A stretch of 64,000 nt of DNA from Tridacna crocea (taxonomy: Eukaryota > Mollusca > Bivalvia > Cardiida > Cardiidae), in assembly GCA_943736015.1 (NCBI GenBank), contig OX031063.1, forward strand, positions 5,251,001-5,315,000, in the 5' to 3' direction. Made by a program: the position numbers and the translations under genes. The notes beneath the pieces are model-generated. The model was not told the DNA's origin and did no database searches. It saw nothing but the letters and a program-made list of their open reading frames with translations. Below, piece after piece: positions 7,601-35,532 of this stretch; the first letter of the stretch is position 1, and every line of letters begins with the position of its first letter.

Positions 7601-9242
7601 TTCCACGATGGATGGCCTCTCCTAGTGTGTTTTAACATGCCATTTCCAATTACATACCTGAGTACTACCAAAAAACTCATTTGCTTGAGAAAAAAAGGGT
7701 TTAATTGGGTTTATATCTATCGGCTTTACACAAAATACGATACATGTTCTTCAAAATTCATTATTGAACTGATTGTGATATTGTTTTCGACAAATACCAC
7801 AAAAACGGCTTTGACAAGAATAACCCATACATCTTTGTGCTAAGCAAATTGTTTTGTCTGTTCTGAAACTTTATAGTGTTAAGACTAAATGACCTTATGA
7901 GCAGAAGATTATTTGCATTGTCGCGTACTGGAAAAAAAATATCATGTGATCGAAGTCGAGGACATGTGATCCTTTAAGTTTTTTGAGCGGTGTATGTGGG
8001 TATTAGGTGAACATAGCATTCTTGATAGGTAGAATGATCTTGATATTACCTGGGATCTGCACGGAACCAATCTGATTTTGGGTTTTATATTCCTGCTCTG
8101 CTCTCAATCCACCAAAGTTTCTGTGTAATTTCAGGTTAATAATAGGCCTAGGTTTAGTAACAACCTCCTAAAATGACAGTTCCTTGTTTACATCATAGAC
8201 AAACAGAGAACCATGTTGGGTCCATACGGACCTCACATGATATGATTAAGGTTAAAGGTGCACTGTCCATAAGTTCACCGCTTAGGTCATGTATTGCGGC
8301 ATTAAAATACTGGCGTAATAATCGTTTTATGTTAGCTGAGTCATTAAGAAAATAATTGTAATTCATTATGCAAATGTCACAATTCATAAACACAAAAAGT
8401 GAAGTGCTCTCCTTAGAAATGGTACAGATTTGAAGGGAGGCTGTGTTCAACATCTATTCGCCGAGACCCCATTCCTCATTCGATATGAATAAGGTGCTTA
8501 GTCCCTAGGTTCACCGCCTTGGTGCTATATTTTGGGGTTAAAATACTGACGATAATAATCATTTTTTTTGCTGGTCGAAAGACCAGTTTACCTTACAATT
8601 TCGTCGATTGTTAAAAACAATGGAAGATAGTGATTTTTGATTATACGACGATTTGCTTGGTATCATGAATCACGGAGATGCATTAAGCCCCTTTTTGCCA
8701 ACGCATGGTTAATATTTAGAACGTTATATGCTAGTGTCTGGCTATTTTTCCATAAAAACGAAGCGGAAAACATGTTCAGTAAAAAGGGAAAATTAACCTT
8801 CTAGCAATCAATATCAACAAGGCCCGAAATTTGTTCTCTGGGATTTGAGTACAAAACCACTCAATTAATAGCAAAAGTGAACAGAAGGGAACATGATAAC
8901 AGCCCCGAGCCTTACTTAACCACTTTACTTACTAACTTAAAATGAAACAAACATGCTACCTTGCAAAGTAGGTGATGTAAAAACGAACGCAATTGAATAT
9001 AGAAGAAAACGATTAAAGTACAATTTTTGCATGAAAAAATGAAATTTCAAATATCGTCATTACACTCAACTGCATGCTTTAAATAAAATTGATAACTGAT
9101 TAAATTTCAATATTTGAAAGAAAAAGCAAAAGCCTGGTTACTTTAGCTTGCAAAAAATTAAGGCTATTTGAAATTCCATTCAAAGTTATTTGTCCTCTAA
9201 GGATTGTTGTATTTTCATTAAAAAAAACAAACTCAAATTGTA
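7601..9242. other. Mostly unassigned; family E half-copy at 8575-8716
   Basis: No gene. Positions 8575-8716 hold the right half of a family E element (AAAGACCAGTTTACCTTAC ... GCATTAAGCCCCTTTTTGCC then CATGGTT). A duplicated AGGTGC...AGTTCACCGC motif occurs at 8255-8282 and 8490-8517, suggesting a further degenerate repeat. Confidence 0.5.
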
Positions 9243-9485
9243 TTCTATACATAGTAGCTCAGTCGGTAGATCACGGGAGCCACAGGTTTAAATCCCAACT
9301 AGGCCAAATTTCTTTCAAAGGATTGATGATATTCATTGCTACATAAATCATTATTCTCTTTTCGTTGACTATTGTTTTCGAAGATATTAGCATGGAGAGC
9401 AGCCACTGGCTTGAAAAGGATATAGCACAAAGTGCTGTTAAAAGAATCATTGGCAGGAAATTGATTAGTGTATTGTCCACCGCGG
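9243..9485 (+). mobile_element. tRNA-derived SINE, degraded
   Basis: Starts with a tRNA-like head (GTAGCTCAGTCGGTAGATCA as A box and GGTTTAAATCCCAAC as B box). The body matches the SINEs at 35240-35565 and 30546-30795 (AGGATTGATGATATTCATTG, GCAGCCACTGGCTTG). The head is followed by an unrelated body, so this is a SINE and not a tRNA gene. Confidence 0.7.
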
Positions 9486-11374: not shown

Positions 11375-11905
11375 AGAGGACACCTTTTGAAAACGTTGTG
11401 AGAGAAGAAAAATGTAACTAAGCAGTATTTCTCTTTTTTCATCAATGTTTATTTTTTTCTATCGTGTTCGAGACAAATATCATGATGTAGACCAAATTCA
11501 GTTTTGTCAAATCTAAAACGTTGTAGCTCTGTATGTAGATAAGGATGTAAACGGAGTTTTAACGTATAGAATTTGAAATAATCTCAATAAAACGGACCAA
11601 TGAGTACATGCATGAAAACCAATTCATAAGCGTTAACGTTTTTATCGAAACGCTCACATTTAGATAAAAAATAAAATGTTTTGTTATTGGTTTGCTCGCT
11701 TCTAATTTGATGTCGTTTTAATGTGGTTTATCGAATCTGAGGAAGAGGCCTTTTGGAAAACATTGAGGAAAAAGACGAACATGCTTGTAAGCAGCAATAC
11801 TTTCTTTTTTTCCACACACTATTTTCTATTAATATTGTGACAAATTTCTGGACCGCGTTTAATTTTTCAGGTTTAAAACTTTGTCATTTCTTAAAAAGTT
11901 ATCTG
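11375..11905. mobile_element. Two degenerate family A-like remnants
   Basis: Around 11385-11450 (GAAAACGTTGTGAGAGAAG) and 11750-11825 (GGAAAACATTGAGGAAAAAG) are old hairpin halves. Two flanking blocks are themselves duplicated (GGTTTTACATGTACGCATAC near 11217 and a similar one near 12178), so this stretch seems to have been locally duplicated before it decayed. Confidence 0.5.
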
Positions 11906-12134
11906 TTAACCCTTTACCCCATAAGGCATTACTGTGGCATCTCAAATGGATCCTAAATAACAGCAAGGATGAAGCCGTTTCTTATGTGTATATGACACCT
12001 TTTGATAGTGAAGAAAACATTGTGGCAAAAGGTGAAATTGCTCGTCACGAGCAATTTCGCCTTTTGCCACAATGTTTTCTAAAGGCTCCTAAAAGCAATG
12101 TGTAGAAATGAGTATCTATGGAGTAATGGGTTAA
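11906..12134. mobile_element. TTAA-flanked hairpin MITE, family B
   Basis: TTAA at 11906 and 12131. The terminus is TTAACCCTTTACCCCATAAG and the right end is GAGTAATGGGTTAA. The central palindrome TGAAATTGCTCGTCACGAGC has the same outer stem as family A (AAAACATTGTGG) but a different apex, and its arms outside the hairpin are unrelated to family A. Other family B copies are at 25459-25694, 32470-32697 and 51075-51303. Confidence 0.85.
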
Positions 12135-17415: not shown

Positions 17416-17747
17416 TCTTTGTATTACTCGAACAAAGTAACATGAAATTAATGACCTCTATTGCCATTAATTTCACGCTTGAATTGGTGTCCGAACCTAG
17501 CTTCGGCCAATCTGGTCTGCATTCGGAAATATGTGAGAGTTTTCAACTCTTTCGGCTGCTGATAGATTCGTCTTTAAATGATACTTAAAAAACCCGAAAG
17601 AAACATTATTTTATTGGTTTAAATTGGTAAGAAGTGGGTGGCACAGATTTAAGATGCACTTTGTGTACAACCCGATCTTGATCTATGCAATCCGCAAAAG
17701 CTTCTTATTTTGACTGTCACTGTAAGGATCGAACCCGACATTTACTG
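17416..17747. other. Unassigned; family C fragment near 17640-17710
   Basis: A short plus-strand ORF crosses 17416-17588 without a recognisable domain. At 17640-17710 a worn family C piece remains (CCGATCTTGATCTATGCA, CCGCAAAAGC). ACTG at 17744-17747 is the right-hand copy (in element orientation) of the TRIM target duplication. Confidence 0.45.
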
Positions 17748-17955
17748 TCTTACGAACGAAGTCCGTAACAAAGAAACAAATGAATAAATGCATGGCAGAG
17801 AAATAAGGATCGGAGCGGGATTCGAACTCCGAACTCCCGGACGCAAAGCCAATACCCTAACCACTGAGCCAAAGAGATATCTCCCTGACGCAGTAGCCAG
17901 GCATTGTATTTAAATCGGGAGTATACCATGCAGGAAGGAGTGGTCTGTCGTAACA
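17748..17955 (-). repeat. TRIM 3' LTR
   Basis: 208 bp, identical to 18072-18279. Pol III A box at 17861-17871 and B box at 17818-17828. ACTG flanks it at 17744-17747. Confidence 0.88.
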
Positions 17956-17966
17956 CACCCCCTCTT
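17956..17966 (-). promoter_or_regulatory. Polypurine tract of the TRIM
   Basis: Minus strand AAGAGGGGGTG ends exactly where the 3' LTR begins, the position needed to prime plus-strand DNA synthesis. Confidence 0.85.
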
Positions 17967-18053
17967 AAAGTCATCATTTATTGATGACTCAAAGCCTTAT
18001 TAGGCAGGAAGTCCGATTTTGGACAACAAATGGGATTAATGGCTCAATGGCCA

Positions 18054-18071
18054 ATCCCGGACGAGCCCCCA
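18054..18071 (-). promoter_or_regulatory. Primer-binding site for tRNA-Pro
   Basis: Minus strand TGGGGGCTCGTCCGGGAT, directly after the 5' LTR. It is complementary over 18 nt to the 3' end of eukaryotic tRNA-Pro including CCA (ATCCCGGACGAGCCCCCA). This is the primer used by many LTR elements. Confidence 0.9.
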
Positions 18072-18279
18072 TCTTACGAACGAAGTCCGTAACAAAGAAA
18101 CAAATGAATAAATGCATGGCAGAGAAATAAGGATCGGAGCGGGATTCGAACTCCGAACTCCCGGACGCAAAGCCAATACCCTAACCACTGAGCCAAAGAG
18201 ATATCTCCCTGACGCAGTAGCCAGGCATTGTATTTAAATCGGGAGTATACCATGCAGGAAGGAGTGGTCTGTCGTAACA
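18072..18279 (-). repeat. TRIM 5' LTR
   Basis: 208 bp, identical to 17748-17955. Pol III A box at 18185-18195 and B box at 18142-18152. Start-to-start spacing is 43 bp, as in tRNA genes. The last 21 nt contain a small TTACG...CGTAA stem. Confidence 0.88.
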
Positions 18280-18283
18280 ACTG

Positions 18284-19259: not shown

Positions 19260-20329
19260 TCATGACTTGTTTGAGCTGGTCAATGCGAAGCACTTTTGTG
19301 CAAACATCCCGCTAGTTTCGTCTACCCCTTCAACTAATACACTTGACCCTAGAAGGGTCATCCGAATCAATACTGTCGCCTTGCCATCCAGATCGTCGGG
19401 CACTTTGACGACAAGTTTACCAAGACAGGCACAACCGTCGTCTGTGGTGTACCTTGGTTGTCGCTGGATTGACGCATAAACAGGAACCGATACTACTTTC
19501 TGTTTCGATCGGTTCAAAACGAGGCGCTGTGTTCTCGAGAAATCTCCAATATTCACGTTTTTACCGATACCTACATGAGCATGAAATATGTCGGTACAAT
19601 ACCGTTTACCACCTGATATAAAAAGTTTATCAACTGAATGGTTGTTTTCGTTAAACGGAACCGCCATCCCGACACCAAGAGTATATTTGGTTGACACCGG
19701 AAGGTGAGAGTCTGGGTTATGGCCCAATAAAACTCCGCCTTTCATTACAATATGTTCAGAATCGTCCACCATTATAATGTTGGCGGTCGGGTAATAATAC
19801 TTTGCAGCCCCGACAACTACGGGCGAGTCGACGAACCCGCCGACAAAATATATAGCATCACATTGTTTAGTTTCTGGATCACGTGACAGATTGGCTAGGT
19901 ATCCCATAGTGCTTTTCACCGCAGGTCCAAAAATATCTTTCATTACTGTTCTGTCGAGAATAAGACTGTCTTCATAAAACTGGACTCGACCTACGTAATC
20001 TGTGTCGTCGATATAAAACTGCATGGATTGTTTATGTTTTGAATGACACAACTTCACAAAAGATTGTGGCAAATTGATTTGGGCTGCCATGTCACTTTCA
20101 AGAGAAAATTGTCTTTTCCTGATTTCAAACTCGTAGAGTAATTCCATAAAATCTAGTTTATATTTTTTCGCATAACTTTCAATAAAATCAGCGCCGAACA
20201 AATTTTGAAGAAACTTCATGAAATCGACGTCCACTCGGCTACCTCCGGAAGAGTTTCCGAGATTTTTTGAGAATTCCGTAATGTTTCCGTTTTCCGACAT
20301 TTCTTGTATTACTATATCACTGCTTGTTC
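19260..20329 (-). CDS. HSPA12-like exon 5 (aa 224-579, stop)
   Basis: The acceptor TATTCCAG precedes GA at 20329. With the G carried from exon 4 it reads GTSSDIVIQE. It holds VDVDFMKFLQNLFGADFI and FEIRKRQF (HSPA12 lid-side helices), YFVGGFVDSP and MKGGVLLGHNP, and ends SSNKS then TGA at 19260-19262. The long open frame continues upstream of the acceptor to a Met at 20375 only by chance. Confidence 0.92.
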
Positions 20330-23300
20330 CTGGAATAAAGTAACAAAAGTTCAACGTGAATATACAAGTATACATGTAGATAGAGGATTTTTTTTTCGGT
20401 GAAAGATCGAAATTTATTTCATCGAGTGAACATCATTGGTAATATTTTCACGAGTGGCGCATGATGTTCACGAGATGTAATCAGTTTCGATCTTTCACCT
20501 TAAAGAACAAATATTCTATTTATTTCATGCTTTTTACCCTTTTGGGGGGATTTACATCAAAACACATTACAGTTTTGTCCGTTAATTCCCCGTGGCGTAC
20601 CCTCTCCGCATAGCAACGCATAACAATATTACATAAAAAAACGAGAAATACAGGTTAAATTACGTCATCGTTAAATTACGTCATCGTTTCAATCGATTTT
20701 TAGCCATATCACGGCAACAGGTGACTCCATATAAAGCATAATCTGGCAAAAGTGTATTTTAGGCTGACCTGGGTCAAACCTTTTTTTTTGTGGGTCAAAA
20801 ATATGTTGGTGCTCTTGTTTTGTTGGGCTTGACACGATCACTTGAGGTAGCCCATATTTAAATTGTATGTTTTCTGCCGCAGCCAAAAATATTCTGCCAA
20901 AACAAATAAATAGGAAATGGTGTGATGTTTAGTTTATCTTTTGTTAGATGCGTCCACAATAATATTCAACTGTCTAAAATTGTTGAATAAAATATCTAGG
21001 CGAATCTGATTTACAATTCAGATTTTGTCCGAACATGTCAATAAATAATATCCCTGCCGAATGATCAAAGTGTCGGTACACGGATCGGACGTATATGAGT
21101 ACTTTATAACCATCTACAGGACGAACAATCGATTGACTACATCTGTTTTACTGACACGTCGACTCCATAAATAAATAAACGGATCACCTTAAAGGCCCAG
21201 TAAAGGCCAAAACATCACAGCAGGTGTCACCATACATTTAGATTTAAATCATACCATTTAAAAGTATGAACAAATATTGTGTTGATGACAGTCTGTTAAA
21301 TTGTGGTCGGGCCATATGAAAGTCACTGGTAGGAGAAAAAAAAATCTGGCAAAAAGTAAGCAAAAGACACGGCTACCCGGCGAAGTTTAACTTGGTTTTG
21401 ATTTTTTTTTTTCTGTCAGCAACTAATACTTTAATCGACAGACTGTCATCAAATGCATTTTAATACCTGCATTGTTTACTTTTTGGCTTCATTGAAACTT
21501 TCAGTGGCATTTTTTCCTCTTTCTAATAGCCGATAACTTTTGAAAATATTGTTGCAAAAGAAGTTATGGAAGCTATGAAAATATAATTCAAGCTGCCTTA
21601 TACTAGGCAAGTCCTTACATAATCATAGATCTTTCCATCATTTTCGTATAACAACTGATTAAATCATGAGATAGACTGGTCCTTGGACTTACAGATAATT
21701 CAACAATAGCGAAAAGTATCGACTCATATCAGCCTGCGCGGATTGCGCAGGCTGATATGAGTCGATACTTTTCGCTCATCCGTTATATCCACTTTTCAGA
21801 GGCCGTGACTCCTTAAGTAATCTTAACCATTCTACATAGAAAGGTCAGCCTTCTTACTTTCTTTCTGATGAGGTGATCTATGATGAAAGGGAAGTAAACA
21901 AGTGAATCATATTGCTTTTAGATTTATGAATTTCTCCAGTGGAGAATATTTCATCATATAGACTCCATTGTTAATGTAGCCATAACGATTTTTCTTATCT
22001 TACACACGATTGGTATAAGATGTGGTGACGTAATAGGAACATTATTAGTTGTACGGTAGCGGTACGACATGATTCACCACAGTCGTGAACAAGTTTCCCA
22101 GTCCCCTGCCACCTGACTGTACAATGAATTCATTATACTGGAAAGTTTTAGCATTCCCACGCCTATTAAGCAAATTACCTATTTCTTGGTTTAAAAGAAT
22201 TGAGTACGCTGAGAAAGTAGAACTTCCCTTCAAAGTGGCCAATTCAATAAAAACTGACGTCACTGGAAACTGACGTCAATGAAACCTTGGTCATACGTGC
22301 TAAACCGTACAGTTTGGCGCATAATCTTGACGTTAATCTTGATCGAAACCGCCATTTTGGATGTTTTGTTGATAGTGTAGACATGTTTACGTGGCTCCGA
22401 AAGGGAAACTGCTTTTACGTTGGTTTTGCCAGCGTACATGATATAATTATATATGTTCGGGGCATATTGTCCAATCAGATCTCAAGAAATGTCTTTGCAG
22501 TATAATAATGTGTTACGTAATCTATGAAATCATCATATTTCGTTCGTCATTTTCAAATCGCGTCAGAATCAATTTCACAGGTCAGTCTAACTGTAAAATA
22601 AGTGATCTTGAGTCAGCATAGTTCTTTTTATTATAATTTGGATTGAAAACAAGTTGTCAAAATATTCTTGTATTTTCTTTCGTGAATGTACACGCCTATC
22701 AAAGTCGTGAATCACTCTGATTTATAACCATAAGATTGTATACTACTCAACATTTGCTAGGGATCACCATATTAGATTCACTCTGGATCTATATGTGGCA
22801 TGTATCATGTATGGTTTTATAATATGTTACATTGCCACACTGATTAATAAAATCACCGGTGGAAATGGATCTTTAACCCTTTACCTCATAATGCCGACTG
22901 TTACAGACACAGAGAAAGACGCCGCTGGAAAACATTGTTGGAAAAGGAGAAAATGCTGGATACCAGCATTTTCTCCTTTTTCAATAATGTTTTCTACCCT
23001 ATGATAGACAGCACTTTGTATGTTGCATTTGGTTTTTAGTCAGCAAATGCTTTCAACTGAGACAATTCTGGAATTTTATATTGTGGTAAGCAGTTTTTGC
23101 AAAACTGTTGCGACATATACACCCATACTGAAATATGTAAGTGATCCCTATCAAATGGTGAGTAGTATATTTCATCTTCTCTAGTAAATTTGTACTGTTG
23201 AATAAAATATGTTTAAACTAACCATTAACGTCTTATCTCAAAAAAATTTTTAACGAACAGTTTCTTTTTTTTTTTTTAACTTTGCACAGAAAAGCTCATC

Positions 23301-32300: not shown

Positions 32301-33831
32301 TTCCACCATGTAGCTGAGCTTTTATCCTTTTTTGTCCTTGAACAAAAAAAGAATTTTCATTGTGATATTCATCCTTGTTTTCTGACAAAACAAGCACGGG
32401 TATGTGCCAATTTTTATGTGCAAAGTTTTAAAGCATATCTGTCCACTAGATAATTTGTCATATACGTCCTTAACCCTTTGCTCCATAGATACTAATTTCT
32501 ACACATTGCTTGTAGAAGCCTTTGGAAAACATTATGGCAAAAGGTGAAATTGCTCGTCACGAGCAATTTCACCTTTTGCCACAATGTTTTCTATGCTATC
32601 AAAAGGTGTCATATACACATAAAAAACGGCTTCATCCTTGCTGTTATTAAGGGTCAATTAGAGATACCATAGAAATGCCTTATGGGGTAAAGCGTTTATG
32701 CGTCTATGGTTATGTGATGCCTTGCTTGGTACAATCCATCACAGACGATGCTGTTGCGGGAGACCACTCCTTCATACATGGCTTTAAATACAATACATGC
32801 GCGGATCCAGATATCTTTCTCAGGGGGGTCCCACCGAAAACGCACTCGTCTTATTATATGATACTTTGATTTCCGGATTTCATTGGATGTAAGCCGTTTA
32901 CAAGAAAAGTCAACGTTTCCAGTTCTAACCATGAGGAGGTCTCCACATTTAGAACCTTTTTTTTTTAAACTTATGACTGTATTTTACATAAATGCTGTGC
33001 AATATCAAACCAGTACCATTTCAAGAATCTGATGACCACATTTTTGCCAAAATTCCAGGGGGGATCCGGACCTCCGGTCCCTCCCCCTCCCCTCTGGATC
33101 CGCCCATACGATACCTAACAACTGTGTTGGGGAGATATCTCGTTAGCTTTGTGGTTATGGTATTGGTTTTTTGAACCTCGAAAAACGAGGATATTTGTCC
33201 GCATGAATTCGAATAACACCAGATGCAGTTTTTATTTCAGCTATGTATTTGTTGCCAACTTTAATGTTCTCAAGATGGCAGCTCGTTCAGGATTGGCCTT
33301 TATGCCCTAAATCCCATTTGTTGTCCAAAATTGGGCCTTCTGCCTGATAAGGCTTTGAGTTATCAATAAATAATGACATTAAAAGAAGGGTGTGTTACGG
33401 GAGACTACTTCTTCATGCATGGCTTTGTCCCGATTTAAAATAAGTACAGCACTTAACAACTGCATCATGGAGATATCTCTTTGGCGCAGTGGATATGGTA
33501 TTGGTCTACTAAAACAGGTAACATGTATATCCTATTTATCGGCGGTTTACTTCAAAAGCCTCGTAACTACAGCTTGGTTTCAAGCTGTAGTTACGAGGTT
33601 TTTGAAGTAAGCCGACGATATATAAAACAATACATTAAACCCCCCTTTTTTACCAGAGCTTAGCTTGATTAAAGACATTACACCCACCTTAAATGTATGT
33701 AAATTTGCGTGTCCCGACATCCACTCTTCATTAAGGTGAACATTCAACATATCCTTTTCATATTCACGTCTGGATGAAAACGCATATCCGGTACCAACAG
33801 TTCCGATGTCAAAGCAGACGATAATCTCCAT
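19260..33831 (-). CDS. HSPA12-like Hsp70-family protein (five exons, 579 aa)
   Basis: Coding exons in transcript order: 33688-33831, 30981-31127, 25179-25415, 24058-24199, 19260-20329. They have GT-AG borders and consistent phases (0,0,0,1) and total 1740 nt including TGA. The family is the divergent Hsp70 branch with an actin-like ATPase fold but no canonical substrate-binding domain, and it is strongly expanded in bivalves; roles in stress and immune responses are proposed for the family. Seen here: phosphate-1 loop DIGTVGTGYAF (aa 8-18), HSPA12-typical SFGYEAE (about aa 63-69), KYVITVPTKWDN (about 153-164), adenosine-side YFVGGFVDSP (374-383) and MKGGVLLG. The phosphate-2 loop, normally DCGGGTVD, reads NVGGTSSD (aa 221-228), so ATPase activity is uncertain. 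Length is close to invertebrate HSPA12-like proteins and shorter than the human paralogues. Introns are full of MITEs, SINEs and a broken TRIM. The start is the only Met just before the ATPase loop. A and B paralogues cannot be told apart. Confidence 0.9.
20380..20640. mobile_element. Family G element, partly degraded (intron 4)
   Basis: Contains GGTGAAAGATCGAAATTTAT with its inverted partner TTTCGATCTTTCACC around CACGAGTGGCGC, then CAAATATTCTATTTATTTCA and CCCCGTGGCGTACCC, all as in 44885-45320. The fold-back is shortened relative to that copy. Confidence 0.7.
20641..21650. other. Intronic sequence of the HSPA12-like gene, unassigned
   Basis: Within intron 4. No exon-like or repeat signal recognised; one inverted pair CTGTTAAATTGTGG/TCGACAGACTGTCATC region around 21285-21445 suggests an old fold-back. 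Confidence 0.4.
21655..21805. mobile_element. GC-hairpin element, family E (intron 4)
   Basis: Perfect palindrome AGCGAAAAGTATCGACTCAT ... ATGAGTCGATACTTTTCGCT around GCGCGGATTGCGC, preceded by the family's ACTGGTCCTTGGACTTACAG block. Confidence 0.8.
22038..22511 (+). mobile_element. Family D element (intron 4)
   Basis: Runs from ACATTATTAGTTGTACGG through the GTGAACAAGTTTCCCAGTCC arm, two TGACGTCA sites at 22255-22262 and 22271-22278, and the end TCTTTGCAGTATAATAATGT. The left arm of the fold-back is lost. Confidence 0.75.
22738..23170 (+). mobile_element. Composite TIR element carrying a TTAA MITE (copy 1)
   Basis: Outer inverted ends ATACTACTCAACATTTGCTA with GGGATCAC, and GTGATCCCTATCAAATGGTG with AGTAGTAT. 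Inside at 22873 a family A hairpin MITE begins at TTAA. The same arrangement, with the MITE at the same place, recurs inverted at 52851-53280, so the composite itself has multiplied. Confidence 0.8.
23195..23225 (+). repeat. Retroelement 3'-end motif
   Basis: GAATAAAATATGTTTAAACT; similar ends at 23910-23933, 36725-36752 and 43950-43975 are preceded by CTTGGCAATAAAATATG. Looks like the 3' terminus of a non-LTR family; no coding part is present. Confidence 0.45.
23590..23788. mobile_element. TIR element (intron 4)
   Basis: Inverted ends GTTAGAATCAAAATAATCTT and AAGATTATTTCGTTTCTAAC extend about 38 bp (to TTCTATCGTGGTTTA / TAAACTACGATAGAA). The interior has AAACCACGAGGGCAATAGCC. Non-coding. 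Confidence 0.75.
24058..24199 (-). CDS. HSPA12-like exon 4 (aa 177-223 plus 1 nt)
   Basis: The acceptor ATCCAG precedes GCT at 24199. The exon encodes AGVNPVMIFTESEAIGRYC to RHAIVNVG, and donor G|GTACGT leaves one base (phase 1). It completes AKK-AGV..., where the family has the 'AAxxAGI' and 'EPEAA' motifs. Confidence 0.88.
24239..24470. mobile_element. GC-hairpin element, family E2 (intron 3)
   Basis: Palindrome TGCGAAAAGTGTCAACCCTG ... CAGGGTTAGTACTTTTCGC with the same right flank as 9515-9735. It lies only about 40 bp upstream of the exon 4 acceptor. Confidence 0.75.
24543..25036 (+). mobile_element. Family D element (intron 3)
   Basis: Fold-back AAACTTGTTCACGACTGTGG with CCACAGCCGTGAACAAGTTG, body as in the other copies (CGACCCCGCCATTTTGGAT, GGGAAACTGCTTTTACGTTG), end TTTCATTGCAGTATAA. 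The paired CRE sites have decayed. It shows the empty TTAA site for the 3047-3258 insertion. A further arm fragment lies at 25060-25170. Confidence 0.75.
25179..25415 (-). CDS. HSPA12-like exon 3 (aa 98-176)
   Basis: A poly-T tract and CCAG precede CAA at 25415. The exon encodes QFRKDTLVEAEGGKS, then VYSNVLKYLKNHC and IKYVITVPTKWDN, ending KAAAKK with donor AAG|GTGTGT. The Val-Pro-x-x-Trp motif is the Hsp70/HSPA12 'TVPAIW' equivalent. A family D remnant comes to within about ten bases of the donor. Confidence 0.9.
25459..25694. mobile_element. TTAA-flanked hairpin MITE, family B (intron 2)
   Basis: TTAA at 25459 and 25691, ends TTAACCCTTTACCCCATAAG and GTGAAGTAAAGGGTTAA, apex GCTCGTCACGAGC. 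About 45 bp upstream of the exon 3 acceptor. Confidence 0.85.
25728..25975. mobile_element. Degenerate family A remnants (intron 2)
   Basis: Worn hairpin halves (GAATGTGAAAAAAAGGAAAG; GGAAAAAGGAAAAAATGTCG) flank an AAAGCATTCTGCAGAGGACA block. No intact ends. Confidence 0.5.
25976..26779. other. Intron 2 sequence, unassigned
   Basis: A GC-richer patch at about 25960-26240 contains repeated TCGGTATATTCCGT-like words on both strands (near 26030, 26080, 26150), suggesting an old local inverted duplication. The rest is featureless. Confidence 0.4.
26780..26998. mobile_element. GC-cored MITE, family F (intron 2)
   Basis: Ends TATGGCTTGGTCATGCGAAA and TTTTCGCGTGTTGCAGGCCA with TAAATTGTCGTCTCAG / GAGACGACACTTTACGC inverted blocks. 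The core palindrome is partly deleted. Confidence 0.75.
27083..27430. repeat. Polypyrimidine (CTTT)n tract with an internal duplication
   Basis: Degenerate CTTT repeat in which a block containing CACGTCGATTTTTTTGTTTT and ATGTATTATGTCGTTTTTGG occurs twice (about 27222-27262 and 27371-27412). It gives Phe/Leu/Ser-rich frames that are not genes. It lies within intron 2 of the minus-strand gene, where it reads as GAAA. Confidence 0.85.
27604..27870 (-). other. Unassigned ORF with a weak SAM-like segment
   Basis: An 88-codon minus-strand ORF. Its C-terminal part LKLNDEELREVGIKTVG resembles the last helix region of SAM domains (LxxLxEEDLKELGI...G), but the N-terminal half of the domain is not recognisable and no splice context was found. 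The DNA also holds an inverted pair ATCGCCTTTCATCGC / GCGATGAAAGGCGAT (27715-27729, 27840-27854), so it may be part of a mobile element. It lies in intron 2 of the HSPA12-like gene, on the same strand. Confidence 0.25.
28159..28233. repeat. Isolated hairpin module (intron 2)
   Basis: GAAAACATTGTGGAAAAAAG with its complement and apex GCAATTGCTTGTAACAAGC. It has the outer stem of families A and B with a third apex sequence; the usual MITE arms are not recognisable. Confidence 0.75.
28470..28740 (-). mobile_element. tRNA-derived SINE (intron 2)
   Basis: Reverse complement of the SINE body at 35240-35565: TTCTCTCCC / GCGACAGGATT, ATGTGGGAAAGCAGCCCGTG and GGTGATCTGGCC, ending near AACGGAATTAAAC. 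The head box region is near 28700-28735 (GGTCGTGGGTCCGATCTC on the minus strand). Confidence 0.7.
29100..29420 (-). mobile_element. tRNA-derived SINE (intron 2)
   Basis: Minus-strand head CAGTCGGTAGCAAGCAGGAC with GCGCGATCTCTGGCTCGGCC, body GCAGCCTGTGGCTTGG and CTGGCCGCTGTG, and the CAATCAAT tail at about 29125-29140. Same family as 35240-35565. Confidence 0.75.
29705..29815. mobile_element. Family C hairpin fragment (intron 2)
   Basis: GCGGACAATTTAGACTAAGA with ATCAGACTGCACG and its complement GTGCAGTCTTATC; ends are lost. Confidence 0.65.
30054..30423. mobile_element. TIR element K (intron 2)
   Basis: Ends TTAAGGTAGTAGACCCATAA and TTACGGGTCCACTACCTTAA are about 22-bp inverted repeats. The interior includes GACCAGAAATTCCTTCGATG and AAAGGGAGGTAATTATTA. 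A second copy in opposite orientation lies at 61118-61487. Confidence 0.8.
30546..30795 (+). mobile_element. tRNA-derived SINE (intron 2)
   Basis: Head CCCCGGTAGCTCTGTCGGTA, body GACGATGGTTATGCGGGAAA and CAGTGGCTTGGAGAGAAG, then GATAGGTGCACTGGCC. The B box and tail are degraded. Confidence 0.7.
30838..30917. mobile_element. Family A-like hairpin, 64 bp from exon 2 (intron 2)
   Basis: TGCAAATTTTGTAGGAAAAG with the GGAGAAAATGCTGGTTACC palindrome and matching right arm. It lies about 60 bp downstream of the exon 2 donor on the minus strand, so it is transcribed in the pre-mRNA. Confidence 0.75.
30981..31127 (-). CDS. HSPA12-like exon 2 (aa 49-97)
   Basis: The acceptor TTTCAG precedes GCT at 31127. 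The exon encodes APSTLLLQPDKTLHSFGYEA through the WYCFKRFKGEL block to KSK, with donor AAG|GTAAGA. The continuation TFK-APSTLLL matches the family pattern. A minus-strand ORF in another frame overlaps it and is a shadow. Confidence 0.9.
31190..31645 (+). mobile_element. Family D element (intron 1)
   Basis: GTGAACAAGTTTCCAAGTCC arm, two TGACGTCA sites (31390-31397 and 31406-31413), CGACCCCGCCAATTTGGAT and an end near TTTCTTTGCAGCGTGATAA. Confidence 0.75.
31646..32469. other. Intron 1 sequence with ORFs on both strands, unassigned
   Basis: At about 31925-32300 frames are open on both strands (plus-strand fragment with VPICIFFAYNGNTIGALKQV; minus-strand fragment with WWKMDELLNNSD). Neither matches the HSPA12 pattern, and exons 1 and 2 join without it. 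Possibly remains of a gene or element; no name can be given. Confidence 0.3.
32470..32697. mobile_element. TTAA-type hairpin MITE, family B (intron 1)
   Basis: Starts TTAACCCTTTGCTCCATAG, apex GCTCGTCACGAGC, ends CTTATGGGGTAAAGCG; the right TTAA has mutated. Inverted relative to 25459-25694. Confidence 0.8.
32752..33508 (+). mobile_element. Second, degraded TRIM copy with nested insertion (intron 1)
   Basis: Same organisation as 17748-18279. The 5' LTR starts TGTTGCGGGAGACCACTCC at 32752, is split by a nested element at 32801-33103, and resumes GGGGAGATATCTCGTTAGC to end at CTCAAGA. A decayed PBS TGGCAGCTCGTTCAGGAT lies at 33276-33293, the interior has CCCATTTGTTGTCCAAAATT, and the PPT AAAAGAAGGGTG (33381-33392) is followed by a 3' LTR at 33393-33508 that is cut short after the A box region. 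The A and B boxes are mutated. Confidence 0.75.
32801..33103. mobile_element. TIR element nested in the TRIM 5' LTR
   Basis: Inverted ends GCGGATCCAGA and TCTGGATCCGC (11 bp) with subterminal G-rich / C-rich runs (GGGGGGTCCC near 32823; CCTCCCCCTCCCC near 33080). It interrupts the LTR match. The target duplication is unclear. Confidence 0.7.
33541..33617. repeat. Hairpin close to exon 1 donor
   Basis: GGTTTACTTCAAAAGCCTCG with CTAACTACAG-type arms around CTTGGTTTCAAG give a ~75-nt near-perfect stem-loop in the first 150 nt of intron 1 of the HSPA12-like gene. Size and shape resemble a pre-miRNA, but nothing else supports that. Confidence 0.6.
33688..33831 (-). CDS. HSPA12-like exon 1 (aa 1-48)
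   Basis: Encodes MEIIVCFDIGTVGTGYAF onward to NLHTFK. The donor is AAG|GTGGGT at 33688/33687 and the exon ends in phase 0. It contains the phosphate-1 (DxGT) loop at the extreme N terminus, as is usual for HSPA12 proteins. Confidence 0.9.
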
Positions 33832-35239: not shown

Positions 35240-35532
35240 TGGCCAAGCCCCGGTAGCTTAGTCGGCAGGACTTGAGAACAGGTGGTCAAGGGTTCGATCC
35301 CTGGGTCGGCCAATTTCTCTCCGAGGATTGATGAAAGTCATTGCGACAGGATTCATTCCTTTCTCACCGCTAATCACTGTTTCGACAATGGTTATGTGGG
35401 AAGGCAGCCAGTGGCTCAGAAAGAATATTGTGCCTAGTAGTGGTAAAAATTAACATGATAGGTGCACCGGCCGTGCGATTTAATTGAAATAATGTTGAAA
35501 ACGGCATTAAACACCAATCAATCAATCGATCG

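Follow-up and report, generated by a model that had tools for sequence, protein, structure and literature searches.

A young Helenus-type TRIM in the bivalve Tridacna crocea, with a candidate helper element, a variable position next to the primer-binding site and fold-back copies

How is an element transcribed and copied if it has no coding capacity and carries a tRNA-like Pol III-type promoter module inside each of its LTRs? This question is raised by a 532-bp repeat in the genome of Tridacna crocea (assembly GCA_943736015.1). The repeat lies in a stretch of 64,000 nucleotides on contig OX031063.1 (positions 5,251,001 to 5,315,000), referred to here as the window, and an initial annotation made from the letters alone had described it as an intact TRIM comparable to the plant Cassandra elements. 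Both its structure and the 21 loci examined support that description.

On the minus strand, the element runs from TGTTACG to TTCGTAAGA (Table 1). In most structural respects the initial annotation proved correct: the two LTRs are identical and start with TG, an exact 18-nt sequence that we take to be the retroviral tRNA-Pro primer-binding site (PBS) adjoins the 5' LTR, and a 4-bp target duplication, which reads ACTG or CAGT depending on the strand, is present at both flanks. The polypurine tract (PPT) was also found; however, it does not abut the 3' LTR as had been claimed, since 2 nt (TG) lie between them. The internal region comprises 116 bp, and the stop-to-stop frames inside the element all fall short of 130 aa. 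Each LTR contains the two boxes first noted, of which the A box (TGGCT..TGG) is an exact match to TRGCY..YGG, whereas the B box (AGTTC) is one base off GGTTC, the form found in the relative L049. A tRNAscan-type check of the LTR had been proposed. Relaxed ARAGORN indeed gives a tRNA-Asn-like fold at element positions 71-144, which is repeated in the second LTR; however, default ARAGORN finds no tRNA within the 64-kb window, and Rfam at the gathering threshold gives no match there, including none to tRNA or 5S (a sub-threshold fragment is possible). Because the match appears only under relaxed settings, the module should be regarded as tRNA-like and not as a tRNA gene. Insertion near Pol III genes was considered and rejected: although GGTTCGATCC is found at a distance of 12 bp from the insertion in the window, only 1 of the 21 loci has a GGTTCGA core no more than 60 bp away, and ARAGORN detects no tRNA in the reconstructed empty site. 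Elsewhere in the window, a B-box-like match (at most one mismatch, both strands) is located at 35291-35300, away from the element, and a 389-aa open frame at 19260-20432 (minus strand), Hsp70-like by eye only, has no Pfam match and a single weak, unrelated match in the PDB.

Table 1. Features of the element and of an older relative in the window (positions within the 64,000-nucleotide stretch).
Feature	Position	Strand	Remarks
Complete TRIM, LTR-PBS-internal-PPT-LTR	17748..18279	-	532 bp; repeat comparison and copy alignment
5' LTR	18072..18279	-	208 bp, 100% identical to 3' LTR
3' LTR	17748..17955	-	208 bp; repeat comparison
PBS TGGGGGCTCGTCCGGGAT, 18 nt, tRNA-Pro type	18054..18071	-	directly 3' of 5' LTR
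PBS+1 (nt 19)	18053..18053	-	opposite tRNA A58; most variable PBS-region position found in the family
PPT AAGAGGGGG and TG, followed by 3' LTR	17956..17966	-	sequence reading
9-bp hairpin preceding the PPT	17968..17990	-	-10.3 kcal/mol; contains the sole AATAAA of the element
A box TGGCTCAGTGG, 5' LTR	18185..18195	-	LTR nt 85-95; sequence reading
B box GAGTTCGAATCC, 5' LTR	18142..18153	-	LTR nt 127-138; sequence reading
A box, 3' LTR	17861..17871	-	LTRs identical
B box, 3' LTR	17818..17829	-	LTRs identical
Palindrome GAGATATCTC, 5' LTR	18198..18207		LTR nt 73-82; in other copies, site of the fold-back junction; proposed RNA 5' end
Palindrome GAGATATCTC, 3' LTR	17874..17883		same sequence as in 5' LTR
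TATA-like box TTTAAATA	18231..18238	-	LTR nt 42-49; ~30 nt upstream of proposed start
Target duplication ACTG	18280..18283		flank comparison
Target duplication ACTG	17744..17747		flank comparison
Older, truncated relative	33106..33504	+	internal region 85%, LTR parts 77-78% identical; degenerate PBS

A search of the source assembly (1.05 Gb, 31 contigs) returned at least 42 matches spanning all 532 bases at 98-100% identity (40 of 603 candidates scored). The loci examined comprise the window copy and 20 others fetched with their flanks, one of which is a tandem array (L026); because they were drawn from the best matches, these 21 loci are biased towards young copies. At 21 of 21, the LTR-PBS-PPT-LTR order, the TGTTACG...CGTAAGA ends and a perfect 4-bp target duplication are present, with 19 different duplicated sequences, so that the full copies anticipated in the host assembly do exist; the initial annotation had reasoned that lone SINE-like units, or the lack of any other copy in this order, would speak against it, and ordered copies are what was found. 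Of the 20 copies aligned (array L026 left out), 15 show no difference between their two LTRs and the remaining 5 a difference of a single base, and the window copy has a 2-bp insertion in common with L009. The PBS followed by any base and 12 internal nucleotides (GGCCATTGAGCC) has 1,746 exact matches in the genome, array units included. Since the same order and duplications recur at all 21 loci, and in view of the 1,746 matches, the element is not a product of chance; it belongs to a Helenus-type TRIM family and is very young. The initial annotation knew of no described family that matches, but elements of this kind had already been described as Helenus (Kojima 2024, PMC10886601), as the available part of that paper makes clear. 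The element belongs to this Helenus (TRIMp3) kind, a placement made by description.

Other arrangements of the family also occur. In L026 (4362-5533), a single AAAC duplication encloses an array that comprises four LTRs and three internal regions, and 13 of the first 100 PBS + N + internal matches listed lie 322-337 bp from another, whereas L009 contains, at 9156-9362, a solo LTR (~91% identical) flanked by ATAC duplications. At L013 (1-9901), a TRIM copy lies amid repeats ~1.83 kb apart that apparently form a tandem array. A dispersed repeat of ~230 bp, found at 11903-12134 of the window and in many places in L010-L028, often has GTTAA at its end, and its copies are commonly 80-90% identical.

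From the structure, recent spread and target duplications of the family, together with reciprocal chimera junctions, a hot spot of variation at PBS+1 and fold-back copies, a single account can be assembled that we regard as probable when taken as a whole. Guided by the A and B boxes of the LTR, Pol III would start near LTR nt 71-75 and, in the absence of a T run, would read through the entire element into flanking DNA. The TRIM RNA would then enter Gypsy-like helper particles, in which tRNA-Pro would serve as primer, and integration would be accompanied by 4-bp duplications. Plus-strand strong-stop DNA would stop at m1A58 of the primer, where an occasional wrong or untemplated base would generate a PBS+1 variant. 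With both RNAs in one particle and the PBS identical in the two, strand transfer might sometimes join the TRIM LTR to the helper internal region, or the reverse. Finally, minus-strand strong-stop DNA, with its 3' end in the palindrome, might serve as a primer on its own strand or on another molecule, and the resulting product would act as strong-stop DNA at the PBS and integrate by its U5 end on the left.

Most LTR elements are transcribed by Pol II, and among the alternatives the one that survives best holds that Pol II transcribes the TRIM from its TATA-like box, the tRNA-like module being a relict of a captured SINE without a role in transcription. The box lies at the spacing needed for a Pol II start at the very place proposed for Pol III, and this was counted against the Pol III account, as were the non-canonical base of the B box and the T runs in older LTR copies. 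Nonetheless, we consider transcription by Pol II somewhat unlikely, since no TTTT is found on the sense strand at any of the 21 loci; under a dinucleotide Markov model, 4.7 would be expected in the 324-nt unit, and the chance of finding none is 0.043. Moreover, neither AATAAA nor ATTAAA is present in the LTR, whereas the LTR stretch of the candidate helper carries AATAAA. Because the only AATAAA of the element is internal and precedes the PPT, the element lacks a canonical poly(A) signal from which a terminal R could result. In a weak and indirect manner, the pattern of T runs and poly(A) signals would thus fit read-through by Pol III better than transcription by Pol II with a poly(A) signal in the LTR.

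The older relatives speak to both readings. A search with the truncated relative in the window gave at least 78 matches (40 of 4,753 candidates scored), and 19 of the 20 fetched loci together with the window copy supplied 60 LTR candidates, of which one with less than 55% identity was dropped; some of the 59 kept enter the count two times, owing to the overlap of L031 with L036 and to array LTRs that are shared by two units. Their identity to the young LTR averages 70%; it amounts to 88% in the TATA-like region, as might be expected were Pol II at work, 83% in the palindrome region, 85% in the A box, 76% in the B box and 60% in the stretch 3' of the B box. The A box thus exceeds the LTR mean, which counts against a module without function, although its conservation is not promoter specific because LTR nt 1-111 are conserved as one block. 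At the non-canonical B-box position, the 59 relatives have A in 21 cases, G in 20, gaps in 17 and T in 1. In 10,966 bp of older LTR sequence, in which T is the commoner base, there are 86 TTTT versus 33 AAAA, and any given TTTT site is found in 10 of the 59 copies at most; 30 older internal regions contain 11 TTTT and 56 AAAA.

The second line of evidence concerns the nucleotide that follows the PBS, which we take, from tRNA numbering, to lie opposite A58 of the primer. A 31-nt pattern (PBS + N + internal) has 2,158 matches in the genome with at most one mismatch. Exact matches with T at nt 19 number 1,589 (1,746 - 157), and of the 569 with a single mismatch, 157 differ at nt 19 and 412 at the other 30 positions (mean 13.7); PBS+1 thus varies 11 times as often as its neighbours, a count that is inflated by copies related through descent, such as array pairs. 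Even in the extreme case in which the four CpG bases of the PBS accounted for all 412, there would be 103 at each, still fewer than 157. According to the accessible part of a review (PMC13191261), m1A58 is found in primer tRNAs, including tRNA-Pro, and in HIV-1 it halts plus-strand strong-stop DNA ahead of A58. The PBS+1 variants may accordingly be read as wrong or untemplated bases added at an m1A58 block. The candidate helper varies less at this position (3 variants among 100 matches listed, one of them a fold-back chimera, compared with 9% for the TRIM), and this was counted against the proposed account.

It could also be argued that the variants are subfamily polymorphisms that were inherited and amplified by copying, without repeated misincorporation. 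Among the 100 variants listed out of 157, C is indeed the commonest (64, with 19 A and 17 G), and the members of two C pairs, each 322 bp apart within arrays, were probably copied from one another. However, all three non-T bases occur, and L027 departs from the commonest sequence among the 20 aligned copies by its C alone; furthermore, the variant base is A in four TRIM loci and G in two with mutually different LTRs, although these differences may postdate insertion. The haplotype evidence for recurrent change comes from nine loci (L027 and eight others), and in its light we find inheritance alone an unlikely explanation, while misincorporation at the modified base remains the preferred one.

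The third line of evidence bears on the source of the enzymes. A genome search revealed 210 places in which the PBS is followed by a base other than T, and eight of these were read. One (L052) contains the R-U5-PBS of the TRIM joined to a foreign internal region, of which at least 40 copies exist at 96-100% identity (40 of 832 candidates scored). In three other copies (L057-L059), this region is preceded by an LTR that differs from that of the TRIM and contains AATAAA, then by a 5-nt spacer and a PBS identical to that of the TRIM. A reading of L052 as autonomous, with a Pol III LTR of its own, was rejected since these three helper copies carry a different LTR; L052 is a chimera, and its 5' side is a fold-back. 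L056 was discarded as a second helper, given that its post-PBS sequence matches the genome twice, once at itself and once weakly; it is probably a broken copy. At 1.9 kb downstream, a 1.1-kb slice of another copy (L060) is a single open frame of 366 aa with matches to Integrase_H2C2 (3.3e-23) and rve (6.7e-13). Judging from this integrase and from the literature, the helper would be Gypsy-like. The initial annotation had suggested looking for an autonomous element that shares the ends of the TRIM. What was found agrees in part: the PBS is shared and the LTR ends are alike (TCGTAACA in the helper candidate versus TCGTAAGA in the TRIM, with the helper LTR end inferred as CTCGTAACA), whereas the rest of the LTR stretch differs.

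The PBS followed by any base and the helper internal sequence has 360 matches in the genome, chimeras among them. With patterns that demanded a junction at the PBS, a TRIM-LTR end joined to the helper internal region was found in 8 places and the reverse chimera, a helper-LTR end joined to TRIM internal sequence, in 5; these represent 12 loci because one locus on C17 holds both junctions, 325 bp apart. On their 5' sides, four of the eight forward chimeras have a TRIM LTR start beside other DNA, two lie in arrays and two are fold-backs. At C3:5771519, a helper-type LTR (L063) is located ~5.65 kb downstream, before the next helper PBS, an order that would be expected if plus-strand transfer at the PBS had joined TRIM strong-stop DNA to helper cDNA. 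The integrase-bearing element is thus a candidate helper, which probably lends its enzymes to the TRIM.

The fold-back copies may bear on the 5' end of the RNA. L052 begins with a perfect inverted repeat (GCCAAAGAGATATCTCTTTGGC), with the LTR mirrored from the palindrome onwards, and this 22-mer is present at 42 places in the genome (84 strand matches of a palindrome), whereas 6e-5 would be expected in random sequence; the pattern was fixed on this one junction, so that other end points would escape it. The distance from the centre to the PBS is 129.5 or 130.5 in the 7 arms that can be paired with the PBS matches listed, and a 206-bp LTR predicts 129.5. In three fold-backs (L074, L075 and L078), the left arm extends precisely to the U5 terminus (TCTTACG), where it meets other DNA with no PBS between them, and one fold-back, at C1:415929, has TTTT on both sides, provided that the last LTR base is counted as changed. 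At C1:22590564, one of the two fold-backs in the fully listed part of C1, no exact PBS lies beside the repeat and the right end is absent at the expected place (right ends of two fold-backs were tried). At C3:13874597, both arms, by their coordinates, pass through a PBS, one into the helper and the other into TRIM internal sequence; this copy, with a PBS on both sides and no left U5 end, was counted against the proposed account. The simplest account of these structures suggests minus-strand strong-stop DNA that was primed on itself or on a second molecule and then used at the PBS. Since the junctions fall at the palindrome, which sits upstream of the A box, they would place the RNA 5' end near LTR nt 73, and this suggests a start that lies ~30 nt past the TATA-like box, with the A box following ~12 nt later. 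It should be noted that the palindrome is embedded in LTR sequence that is itself imperfectly palindromic, and pausing of reverse transcriptase there may be an alternative influence.

Integrated LTR elements recombine with each other, and both the TRIM and the helper family are abundant; chimeras and fold-backs might therefore stem from recombination or inversion between integrated copies instead of reverse transcription. The two forward chimeras with TRIM internal sequence upstream, as in arrays, would agree with such an origin, as would the result that none of the four predicted chimera 3' ends examined showed an LTR end from which a target duplication could be read. On the other hand, all 13 chimera junctions fall at the 18-nt PBS, an obligatory site of strand transfer (to which the patterns were confined), three left arms of fold-backs meet other DNA exactly at the U5 terminus, and one of the three has matching 4-bp TTTT on both sides. 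Recombination thus appears quite improbable as the source, and reverse transcription is preferred. The idea that a SINE merely lies in tandem by chance has the tRNA-like boxes in its favour, but it can be dismissed almost entirely in view of the PBS, the PPT, the precise LTR ends, the 4-bp duplications at all 21 loci examined and the solo LTR of L009 with its own 4-bp duplications.

If reverse transcription is indeed responsible, the genome might preserve a side route of LTR retrotransposition, in which minus-strand strong-stop DNA of the TRIM, self-primed at the palindrome, replaces plus-strand strong-stop DNA, is passed to TRIM or helper cDNA by transfer at the PBS and integrates by its U5 end, so that the copies would map both the transcript start and the m1A58 footprint; we put this forward tentatively, as a possibility about which we are nearly evenly divided.

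Helenus comprises tRNA-bearing TRIMs, for which the term TRIMp3 was coined (Kojima 2024, PMC10886601). As far as the available sections of that paper go, there are 51 families in five orders of pteriomorphian bivalves, an origin by SINE insertion into an LTR is proposed, and helpers in animals are proposed from PBS similarity only, without transcript data. The present element resembles Helenus in its length (532 bp, within a total range of 311-1263 bp), two LTRs, PBS and PPT, and lack of coding capacity, as well as in the tRNA-derived A and B boxes of the LTR (here with box A exact and box B one base off), the 4-bp target duplications reported for animals (here at 21 of 21 loci), tRNA-Pro among the bivalve primers, and the tandem arrays. 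For Helenus, a Gypsy partner is suspected from PBS similarity; here, chimera junctions point to an integrase-bearing element and thereby name a helper candidate. The expectation in the same sections that LTRs need not be shared with a helper fits the sequences read here. In contrast to the present element, neither a helper indicated by chimeras nor fold-back copies nor a hot spot at PBS+1 appears in those sections.

Other systems share single features with the element. Cassandra of plants and Ajax of nemerteans are, according to the available part of PMC10886601, likewise TRIMs whose LTR contains a Pol III promoter module, but their module is derived from 5S rRNA, whereas the one described here is tRNA-like and has no Rfam 5S match at the gathering threshold. 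The bivalve biv-TRIM (Satovic 2019, PMC6934838, seen in part) has TDRs of 202-218 bp, tandem arrays and solo repeats; however, it is described there with a 77-80-bp internal domain, the PPT GGGGAGA, no clear PBS and a conserved TGATCCCAAAGGAC, in contrast to the 116-bp internal region, the PPT AAGAGGGGG, the 18-nt PBS and, by reading, the absence of TGATCCCAAAGGAC in the present element. Unlike tRNA SINEs, it has no LINE-type tail, variable 3' end or long target duplication, and it does possess a PBS and a PPT. In HIV-1, minus-strand strong-stop DNA also folds back and primes itself (PMC4668388, citing Guo 1997), although in the portion consulted this yields aberrant cDNA that competes with strand transfer, whereas the products proposed here are integrated in the genome. 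Complex LTR insertions in Triticeae have been ascribed to template switching (PMC1950507, in the part available); here, a Pol III-type TRIM is combined with a coding element, at the PBS. Among the matches listed by searches of the open-access literature of PubMed Central, there were no TRIM-helper chimeras for Helenus, no integrated fold-backs and no PBS+1 footprint. The helper candidate with its chimeras, the PBS+1 hot spot and the fold-back junctions appear to be new beyond the known Helenus kind. If the readings of PBS+1 and of the fold-backs are true, large young LTR families would reveal the A58 modification of a primer tRNA from the genome alone and, where a palindrome allows, the RNA 5' end could be read in the same way, which would make the Pol III question for Helenus-type elements directly testable.
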